Position numbers and translations under genes: made by a program. The notes under the pieces are model-generated. The model was given only the letters and a program-made list of their open reading frames with translations. It was not told where the DNA came from and searched no databases. This document shows, piece by piece, positions 30,922 through 33,492 of a stretch of DNA of 64,000 bases (position 1 is its first letter; the number at the start of each line of letters is the position of its first letter). Location: positions 930,001 through 994,000 of the forward strand of contig NZ_FONZ01000001.1 in assembly GCF_900113055.1 (NCBI RefSeq), in the 5' to 3' direction. This DNA is from Flavimobilis marinus (GTDB taxonomy: Bacteria; Actinomycetota; Actinomycetes; Actinomycetales; Cellulomonadaceae).

Positions 30922-33492
30922 ATGCGACCCGTGCTCGCCGCCCTGCTCACTGGTGCTCTCACCGTCGTCGGCCTCGCCGTCCCGGTGGTGGCGCTCCCCG
31001 TCGCCGCGGCGGAACCGGTCGAGGCGGAGTTCGCCTCCATCGCCCTCGACGGGGTCGACACGGCCGCGGCGAAGGATGCGAGCGTCGCCGAGGAGGCCGT
31101 GAACGCCGCGCCCGACGCGGCAGCCGAGTCCGCGCTGCGGGACAGCTCGGACGACCTCGTCGCCCTCAGCTCGCTGGAGAGCACCGAGCCCTTCATGGTC
31201 GCGGGTGTCACGTGGGACGGCACCGCCGAAGACGTCACCGAGGTCGCCGTTCGCGTGCGTGAGCAGGGCGAGTGGACGGACTGGACCGAGCTCGAGGTCG
31301 AGAACACGGGCGTGGAGGGCGAGCGTGCGGGTACGTCGCCCGTGCTGAGCGCCGGTGCCGACGGCATCCAGGCTCGGGTCCGCACCCACAGCGGGCGCGC
31401 CCCGGCGGGCCTGCAGATCGACCTGGTGGACCCGGGCTCCTCCCGCGCTGACGGGGCACGGGCCGGCGGCCCGGCCGCCACGGCGAACGCCGCGACGGGC
31501 TACGAGATCGCACCGCAGGTCGTCACGCGCGCCCAGTGGGGCGCGGACGAGTCCAAGGCCGGGTCGTGGCCGCAGCTCTCCGCCGGGCTGTCGGCCATGT
31601 ACGTGCACCACACCGCCGGGACGAACAGCTACACGGAGGCACAGGCCGCCGCGCTCGTGCGAGGGATCTACGGCTTCCACACGGGCAGCCGCGGCTGGCC
31701 GGACATCGGCTACCAGTTCCTCGTGGACAAGTACGGCAACATCTACCAGGGCCGCCAGGAGGCGATCCACGACCTCCCGATCGGCGCCCAGGCGGGCGGG
31801 TACAACACCTCGACCATCGGGATCTCGGCTCTCGGCAACTACGAGACCGCGGAGCCCACGGCCGCGCTGCAGAGCGCGCTGGTCAAGGTCCTGGGCTGGA
31901 AGGCCTACCAGTACGGGCTCAACGCCACGGGTACCACCCGGCTCTACACGGGCTCGAGCACCGGCAGCACCGTGCGGGCCAAGGCGGGTTCCACGATCAC
32001 GGTCCCGGTCATCCTCGGCCACCGCGACACCAACTACACCGCGTGCCCGGGCAAGAACCTCTACGCGAAGATGCCCAGCATCCGCCAGCGCGTGGCTGAG
32101 CGCGTCTCGCGCGCGAAGGCTACCCACGGATCGTCCGTCGCCCCGGGCGTCGGCTCGCCGTCGGTCGTCCAGCCCGGTGCCGACCAGGCGCCGGTCCAGA
32201 CCGCGACGAGCTCGACCTACCGCTGGTCGGCCGTCCCGGGCGCCGCCCGCTACGAGATCCTCACGCGCTCCGGCTCGCACGGGTACGCGATGGACGACTC
32301 CCGCTCCTGGATCCGCTACGGCACCGTCTCCGGCACGCAGGCGACCATCTCGATCAGCCCGGGGCAGACGCGGCTGGTCATGGTGCGCGCCATCGATGGC
32401 TCTGGGCGACGCAGTGCCGCGGTGCGTGTCACGCAGTCCACGGCGCCGGTGTCGGCGTCGGCTCTCGCGTGGTCGAGCGGTTGGACCAAGGAGTCCGGCG
32501 CCGGACACACGATCGGGGCGCTGCGCTCGACGGCGACCGCGGGGCGCACGCTCCGCGTCGACAACGTCAAGGACGCCGCCGAGGTGCGGATCTACGGCGA
32601 GGCCGGGCCAGGCTACGGCGCCACGCAGGTGCTGCTGGGTGACCGGGTCATCGGCGAGGTGCGGTGGGACGCGGCAACCGTCGACCCGCGCGCGGTCCGT
32701 GCCCTGCGCCTGCCCGGTCCGGTCTCGGGCAAGGTCCGCCTCCGGACGACGAGCGCCGCACGCGTGGCGATCAGCACCCTGGCGTTCCCACGCGAGTCGG
32801 CCCCGGCCTCACCGACTCCGAGCCCCTCCGCCCCCGTCGCGCTCGGCCGGCCGGTGCTGGACAAGAGCAGCACGTACGACTTCCCGGGCCGGCTCTCGCA
32901 GTCGATCACGTTCCGCTGGAAGCCGGTTGCGGGGGCGAGCTCGTACCGGCTCGAGGTGCGCAAGGCGAAGCACGGCAAGGGCTTCGGTCGCACCATCCAG
33001 GCCGGATCGACGACCGGGACGTCGATCTCGAAGAAGATCAAGGCGGGCGAGACCTGGTACGTCAAGGTGCGCGCGGTCGCGGCCGACGGCACGGTCTCCG
33101 CCGCCTCCGCGTACCCGAAGGTGACCCGGCCCGTCGGCCGGTCCACGCTGAAGCGGACGTCGGGCACCAAGGCGTGGAGCAAGTCCCGGCACACCGGCTA
33201 CTACGGGAACTTCGCGTGGTCGACCACGAACAAGGGCGCCAAGCTGTCCGTCGACGGCGCGTCCGACGTCCGGACCGTGCAGGTCGTCGCGGCGCGCGGC
33301 AAGGGATACGGCCGCATGGCCGTGTACGTCGGTGGCAAGCGGGTCGGCACCATCAACACCGCCGCGACGCGACTCGACCGGACGCACCGCTACACCGTCA
33401 AGGTGGGCGGCAAGCGCTCGGGTCGGGTGACGCTCAAGGCGCTCGACCAGGGCAAGCCGGTGCGGGTCAGCGTGATCGTCGCCGCACGCTGA
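30922..33492 (+). CDS. Secreted amidase (PGRP/Amidase_2) with repeated C-terminal modules
   Basis: A large secreted protein (856 aa) predicted to cut the muramoyl-alanine bond of peptidoglycan. A signal peptide covers residues 1-30. An N-terminal region of about 160 residues is followed by a PGRP/Amidase_2 domain at about 193-395 with zinc ligands in MYVHHTAG and ILGHRDTNYTACPG. Two Fn3-like segments (near 431 and 660) alternate with two copies of a module (about 514-615 and 746-856) sharing GYG, VxxGxRxG and VD. A Pro/Ser linker is near 626-645. CCGGAGGA precedes ATG 30922. Confidence 0.88.
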   Translation: MRPVLAALLTGALTVVGLAVPVVALPVAAAEPVEAEFASIALDGVDTAAAKDASVAEEAVNAAPDAAAESALRDSSDDLVALSSLESTEPFMVAGVTWDGTAEDVTEVAVRVREQGEWTDWTELEVENTGVEGERAGTSPVLSAGADGIQARVRTHSGRAPAGLQIDLVDPGSSRADGARAGGPAATANAATGYEIAPQVVTRAQWGADESKAGSWPQLSAGLSAMYVHHTAGTNSYTEAQAAALVRGIYGFHTGSRGWPDIGYQFLVDKYGNIYQGRQEAIHDLPIGAQAGGYNTSTIGISALGNYETAEPTAALQSALVKVLGWKAYQYGLNATGTTRLYTGSSTGSTVRAKAGSTITVPVILGHRDTNYTACPGKNLYAKMPSIRQRVAERVSRAKATHGSSVAPGVGSPSVVQPGADQAPVQTATSSTYRWSAVPGAARYEILTRSGSHGYAMDDSRSWIRYGTVSGTQATISISPGQTRLVMVRAIDGSGRRSAAVRVTQSTAPVSASALAWSSGWTKESGAGHTIGALRSTATAGRTLRVDNVKDAAEVRIYGEAGPGYGATQVLLGDRVIGEVRWDAATVDPRAVRALRLPGPVSGKVRLRTTSAARVAISTLAFPRESAPASPTPSPSAPVALGRPVLDKSSTYDFPGRLSQSITFRWKPVAGASSYRLEVRKAKHGKGFGRTIQAGSTTGTSISKKIKAGETWYVKVRAVAADGTVSAASAYPKVTRPVGRSTLKRTSGTKAWSKSRHTGYYGNFAWSTTNKGAKLSVDGASDVRTVQVVAARGKGYGRMAVYVGGKRVGTINTAATRLDRTHRYTVKVGGKRSGRVTLKALDQGKPVRVSVIVAAR

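Follow-up and report, generated by a model that had tools for sequence, protein, structure and literature searches.

A duplicated Fn3 and CBM6/35/36-like tail in one clade of amidases, a candidate charge-driven anchor to the cell wall

Peptidoglycan amidases with long C-terminal tails raise the question of what such a tail is, where else it occurs and how it might keep the enzyme on the wall. The gene considered here lies in a stretch of 64,000 nucleotides of Flavimobilis marinus DNA, hereafter the window, and its features are listed in Table 1. An initial annotation, made from the sequence alone, had called the product an amidase and had described in its C-terminal part a repeated beta-rich module, probably an anchor to wall sugars. 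The identity of the enzyme was borne out by a Pfam Amidase_2 match of 55.1 bits, against a cut-off of 26 (E 1.2e-14), and PGRPs are the PDB sequence matches of the amidase (best E 5.4e-20). Among 22 aligned amidase rows, Y264, H367 and C375 are invariant, and H229 and H230 are present in at least 90%. The His/His/Cys zinc ligands and active-site Tyr, a residue set known from T7 lysozyme, are all found in the enzyme, with roles given to the residues by motif; as His229/230, Tyr264, His367 and Cys375 are kept, the amidase is probably catalytically active. Residues 31-195 (window 31012-31506), which include the N-terminal beta-rich part, have a net charge of -22, opposite to that of the tail. The model of the whole protein, built with 22 aligned rows, has a mean pLDDT of 84.7 and a pTM of 0.67.

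Table 1. Position of the amidase gene and of its parts in the window.
Feature	Window position	Strand	Basis or remark
Amidase gene, 856 aa (PGRP/Amidase_2 enzyme, tandem C-terminal units)	30922..33492	+	
Signal-peptide-like start, residues 1-30	30922..31011	+	By-eye sequence reading
N-terminal beta-rich region, residues 79-170	31156..31431	+	Predicted model
Amidase_2 match, residues 227-378	31600..32055	+	Pfam profile
Unit 1, Fn3-like domain, residues 411-505	32152..32436	+	Self-alignment, profile, predicted model
Unit 1, CBM6/35/36-like beta module, residues 506-624	32437..32793	+	Whole unit net +12
Pro/Ser/Ala linker, residues 625-641	32794..32844	+	Model; pLDDT <50 at 626-639
Unit 2, Fn3 domain, residues 642-733	32845..33120	+	Profile, predicted fold
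Unit 2, CBM6/35/36-like beta module, residues 734-856	33121..33489	+	Whole unit net +34

The duplication of the tail is real and far beyond chance. BLASTP aligns residues 396-630 with 631-856 over 202 residues at 30% identity (E 6e-22). In 1000 shuffles the real score was never reached, be it that of the beta module, of the Fn3 part or of the entire half; what is repeated is thus the Fn3 domain together with the beta module. The two module copies of about 100 residues read by the initial annotation are indeed two, but the repeating unit is the Fn3 plus module pair of about 214 residues, with unit 1 at residues 411-624 (32152-32793) and unit 2 at residues 642-856 (32845-33489). Over 34 aligned units the best conserved columns of the module are Trp, Gly, Val, Ser and a terminal Arg, and the motifs proposed earlier fared unequally. 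The initial Trp (W521/W752) held, being Trp in 31 units and Tyr in 3, while GxGYG kept its last Gly in 34/34 units and its Tyr in just 14/34; the Asp of the VD pair is not conserved across the units, and where copy 1 has the Arg of VxxGxRxG, the second copy has a Lys. Two elements had escaped that reading, namely an SG that precedes the last strands of the module (S in 31/34 units, G in 33/34) and the terminal Arg, present in 31/31 unit rows that have a residue there. Tyr or Phe is frequent at columns 760-761, and no conserved acidic or amide pocket residue was found in the module among the 34 units.

Profile searches place this unit near several sequence families and inside none of them. A Pfam scan of residues 398-856 returned CBM60, Ig_Rha78A_N, DUF4249 and DUF2969 only, all under cut-off; the tail gave no match to a Pfam profile of named wall-binding repeats (CWB2, ChW, LGFP, LysM, SH3b and others), and no NCBIfam model passes on it. 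CBM60 (PF16841), the sole Pfam match on the window's modules, reaches 13 to 14.7 bits against 28.2 (E 0.044), and membership of that family was rejected on this score. When 24 units were scanned singly (Pfam, E<=10), fn3 was found in four (best 2.5e-5), DUF7330 in four (best 2.4e-4), GH85_C in three (best 0.016) and CBM60 in two (best 0.025); none passed when 10 of the 24 were rescanned against Pfam curated cut-offs. The GH85_C match sits on the Fn3 part, and DUF7330 (PF24016) falls on the module, at 21.1 against 27 bits in the unit of the relative L010 (E 2.4e-4). Unit 1 of the window has no Pfam match at E<=0.1, fn3 included. Against PDB sequences the unit profile gave 11 weak matches, chiefly through the Fn3 part (best E 0.019), and the CBM6-named entry 5g56 matched weakly, through the Fn3 part only (E 0.32). 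A profile for a phage major tail protein, phrog_7440, matched tail residues 426-519 with E 3.4e-5, its best stretch being the Fn3-like part of unit 1; a phage origin is unsupported, since tblastn of unit 2 against 50,697 phage records gave no match at E<=0.01. No description of the Fn3 plus module unit was found in the literature, as judged by titles and abstract openings.

The absence of a named wall-binding domain, as the initial annotation had it, therefore stands at the level of sequence families, where no Pfam or NCBIfam model lies above cut-off, but not at the level of fold, which has a name. The model of unit 2, built with 24 aligned units, has a mean pLDDT of 95.1 and a pTM of 0.86. 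Its module (model residues 92-215, protein 733-856) matches the CBM35 structure 2w1w with Z 12.3 (2.5 A, 119 aligned residues) and the CBM36 structures 1w0n, 1ux7 and 7ay3 with Z 11.8 each; in the whole-protein model, residues 734-856 match 7ay3 with Z 12.1. The module of unit 1 is matched by the CBM35-bearing xylanase 4qaw over residues 506-629 (Z 12.5, 3.1 A, 123 aligned) and by CBM6-3 1o8s over residues 507-623 (Z 11.4). The whole-protein model gives both modules the same run of strands, at 543-562, 567-572, 575-581, 588-609 and 614-621 in unit 1 and at 774-793, 798-803, 806-812, 819-840 and 847-855 in unit 2. As predicted, then, both tail modules have a CBM6/35/36-type beta-sandwich fold, and the idea of a wholly unrecognised domain was rejected. 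A lack of structural similarity between the copies, which had been offered as grounds for refuting the repeat, is not what the models give, since strands and fold matches agree. The Fn3-like segments noted earlier were likewise confirmed in unit 2, where Pfam fn3 gives E 8.8e-4 (19.9 bits, under the cut-off of 25) and model residues 1-96 match the titin Fn3 domain 3lpw with Z 11.2 (2.0 A, 86 aligned). At low TM-score the Foldseek lists also include insecticidal and other sandwich proteins, matches that we take to reflect the common sandwich shape.

The likeness to CBM6, CBM35 and CBM36 (2w1w, 1ux7, 1o8s) extends over the whole module, with Z from 11.4 to 12.5 in both copies, and it includes the position as a C-terminal appendage of a hydrolase. 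The differences are that identity is 9-17% in the fold-match rows of unit 2, that no profile lies above cut-off, and that the amidase units are strongly basic and lack acids matching the structural calcium ligands. A CBM35 and the Amycolatopsis cell wall are reportedly the subject of an earlier paper.

The distribution of the unit follows that of one kind of amidase. The window's genome, of 2.9 Mb, has the Fn3 plus module unit at one locus found, so a spread over that genome is unsupported, and a near relative carries the amidase gene with 68% identity in unit 2. With the amidase tail as query, matches came from at least 21 of 79 genomes; every one of these belongs to the bacterial family of the window, whose own genome is among them. 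The unit profile gave at least 85 matches in at least 55 of 150 genomes of that family. All 65 unit matches at E<=1.6e-19 adjoin an amidase of one group, as does one (in G009) of 20 weaker ones. A search of the 150 family genomes with the amidase domain found at least 143 places, of which 46 lie at E<=2.9e-61 and, after a gap, 97 at E>=6.2e-54. Among the matches listed, all 46/46 amidases of the group bear units, one in 26 and two in 20. In a tree of 50 amidase domains, which took 38 of the 46 unit-bearing rows and 12 of the 97 sisters, the 38 fall on one side of a branch (99/89) and the 12 sisters on the other. The unit is tightly linked to one amidase clade.

The sister amidases carry other tails in the same place. 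At E<=10 the unit profile found the Fn3 plus module unit in none of 12 sister tails. Pfam scans of 10 of these showed CWB2, ChW and LGFP in one tail each, DUF4214 in two tails and FlgD_ig just under cut-off in one, and four had no tail family. Like the unit, the CWB2 (PF04122), ChW (PF07538) and LGFP (PF08310) repeats stand C-terminal to a homologous Amidase_2 domain, but by profile they are unrelated to it; Pfam labels CWB2 a cell wall binding domain, and ChW and LGFP are presumably surface repeats. One sister (L142) has almost no tail (18 residues), and another (L137) has a basic one, of +42; others are not basic. In L131, L136 and L141 the tails hold repeats some 100 residues long that share a GWALDPDT...VHVYVDG-like motif; those of L131 and L136 gave no Pfam match at E<=0.01. 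The slot after the amidase domain tolerates many tails.

A tree of 56 units bears on how the tandem arose. One group (84/99, not starred) takes in all 19 first units together with 14 of the 19 single units, and the 18 second units fall outside it; the single units from G022 and G043 are nested, on starred branches, with the second units of the window's genus. The simplest account of these relationships is that the duplication is old and that one copy or the other was lost later. The amidase tree, however, has the single-unit enzymes of G022 and G043 branching first, followed by those of G006 and G030, so that the ancestor may have carried just one unit. The gene order truB-ribF-amidase-rpsO-pnp is kept in 7 of 20 loci (five from the same genus, G022 and G043); 12 others have the amidase without truB, ribF, rpsO or pnp in the stretch taken, and the G019 locus is without such an amidase. 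At L107 (G376:C1:2655509-2657480) the second unit lies in a 235-aa frame separate from that of the amidase and first unit which, in a genome 81% complete, suggests a frameshift or an assembly error.

Relatives of the unit are found beyond the bacterial family. Over the phylum, at least 19 genomes of 296, counting that of the window, have a match to the unit profile, and by eye the host proteins are GH25-like muramidases (L032, L033, L037), protease-like (L049, L055), amidase-like (L038) and others. A profile of the module without Fn3 recovers 24 of 27 distant phylum relatives at E<1e-3 and 0/27 shuffled sequences; one of the 27, L046, matches through Fn3 only. By profile similarity the amidase module is a homologue of a broader Fn3-plus-sandwich family of the phylum. 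No Pfam model passes on the module of the six distant relatives scanned, CE2_N (PF17996) coming nearest with 23.8 against 27.9 bits (E 4.8e-5, L053), so that DUF7330, CBM60 and CE2_N are the nearest Pfam profiles on the module, yet all under their curated cut-offs.

These relatives differ from the amidase units in two acidic positions. Right before the module they have an acidic pair, often as P-x-D-D, and their last strand holds a further acid, in I-D-G or V-D-A. In the sequence alignment the C-terminal acid is present in 24/24 readable distant rows vs 0/33 readable amidase units, and the N-terminal pair, with at least one D/E/N in 22/24 readable distant rows, is lacking in 30/33 amidase units; 3 of the 27 distant rows are unreadable at these positions. 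In BT0996-C of Bacteroides thetaiotaomicron a structural calcium is held by Glu21, Glu23 and Asp137, near the first and last strands (PMC9843283). As the acids missing from the amidase units have a placement similar to that of these ligands, we infer that the window's lineage lost a structural calcium site. Among 19 weaker in-family hits, none of them beside a matched amidase when the unit and amidase match lists were compared, the C-terminal acid was lost in 14, kept in 4 and unreadable in one, L143 (by eye); a loss specific to the amidase was therefore rejected, and the loss of this acid is a trait of the lineage. BT0996-C is also a Lys-rich, CBM6/35-like sandwich without the usual CBM6/35 binding signatures, which binds the polyanion polygalacturonate electrostatically, a binding impaired by 150 mM NaCl in Tris (PMC9843283). 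It differs in keeping its Glu21, Glu23 and Asp137 and in having a plant polygalacturonate as ligand, and it is likened to the amidase module by description only.

Charge is the other character of the tail. The amidase units are net positive in 33/33 cases, from +7 to +50 with a mean of +24.5 (L021, not an amidase unit, was omitted from the mean), and the 27 distant relatives have a mean of +12.5, with 6/27 negative. Unit 2 of the window, at +34, has 21 Lys in 215 residues (9.8%), against 2.0% Lys in the genome sample; unit 1 is only mildly basic, at +12. The sample comprised 268 ORFs called on 464 kb of the same genome, window included, by a crude GC3 gene caller with a rough signal rule. When 228 ORFs are ordered by their most basic stretch of 215 residues, the amidase comes 11th; of the ten ahead of it, several have almost no Lys and look like false frames. 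Among 29 secreted or membrane-like ORFs, four have a stretch of at least +34, the amidase being one of them, and the others reach at most +9. The three other secreted-like, Lys-rich proteins of the window's genome (L088:3880-8580, L088:8670-12371 and L084:16105-17958) have +35 to +37 per 215 residues. The two of L088 are adjacent and glycosidase-like, with near-identical terminal Ig-like repeats, and the third has carboxypeptidase-regulatory-like repeats (by eye); their Lys-rich C-termini differ in make-up from the amidase tail. Since these three proteins are equally basic, the charge is not specific to the amidase module, and it may serve other ends, such as solubility or the binding of DNA or matrix. 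Hydrolases with a distinct net charge are said to have been the subject of an earlier paper.

How, then, would the tail work? Anchoring to wall sugars, as initially supposed, is plausible by position, in that some sister amidases have CWB2, ChW or LGFP at the same place. The charge, together with the lack of a conserved polar or calcium site, points to polyanion binding rather than a sugar pocket. With slightly better than even confidence, drawn from sequence, models and analogy, we regard the tail as an anchor driven by charge and avidity on anionic wall polymers; this retention is preferred for the CBM-like sandwich, the missing pocket residue and calcium acids, the strong charge and the BT0996-C precedent. 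The units would form a surface anchor in which polycationic sandwiches bind the polyanionic wall (teichoic- or teichuronic-type polymers or other acidic glycans), mainly through electrostatics and avidity, with the Fn3 domains as spacers; the zinc amidase would thereby be held on peptidoglycan, and copy number, one unit or two, may tune its retention. Against this proposal count the mere +12 of unit 1, a charge that is not specific to the module and an acid loss that is not specific to the amidase, and, as salt impairs BT0996-C, charge binding of such a kind may be weak in salt.

The main rival is a true carbohydrate-binding module, in which each sandwich would have a loop-side pocket specific for one wall or environmental sugar, charge being secondary. 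The CBM6/35/36 fold, the Trp of 31/34 units with the frequent Tyr/Phe at columns 760-761 and the weak CBM60 matches on the module (2/24 members, best E 0.025) all speak for such a pocket; it nevertheless seems unlikely to us, in view of the 34 units without a conserved acidic or amide pocket residue and of the calcium-ligand acids missing at the C-terminal position in 33/33 units and at the N-terminal one (D/E/N) in 30/33. Rather improbable is an intra- or intermolecular clamp, by which the basic units would dock onto the acidic N-terminal region, the enzyme staying inactive or oligomeric until it touches the wall: the polarity within one protein that suggests it (-22 in residues 31-195 vs +12 and +34 in the units) loses weight because acidity of this degree is not exceptional, the amidase ranking 19th of 255 in the genome sample by its most acidic stretch of 165 residues, and the whole-protein model is of moderate quality in its pTM (0.67) and of low confidence in the linker. 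A spacer role is common among Fn3 domains, and the sister tails are very diverse, one of the 12 (L142) being nearly tailless, but a simple spacer or stabilising stalk, without any ligand and serving just to position the catalytic domain, is very improbable, since a positive charge in 33/33 units and retention in 46/46 amidases exceed what a spacer needs.

The charge-driven anchor may be set in a broader proposition, to which we give somewhat less than even credence: that one amidase clade has taken as its standard wall anchor an unnamed, polycationic branch of the CBM6/35/36 type without a calcium site, which acts through electrostatics and copy number, and that this branch is at the same time one case of a habit of the secretome, in which unrelated C-terminal beta domains, Ig-like and others, have turned Lys-rich for surface retention. 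The unit recurs across the bacterial family, and its wider form occurs elsewhere in the phylum, attached to proteins that resemble muramidases, proteases and amidases; as no Pfam or NCBIfam model lies above cut-off in the members scanned, such proteins probably carry it unannotated. If the units do bind wall polyanions by charge, they would constitute an anchor without a sugar pocket, and they would allow a clean test of the part that net charge and copy number play in holding peptidoglycan hydrolases on the wall.
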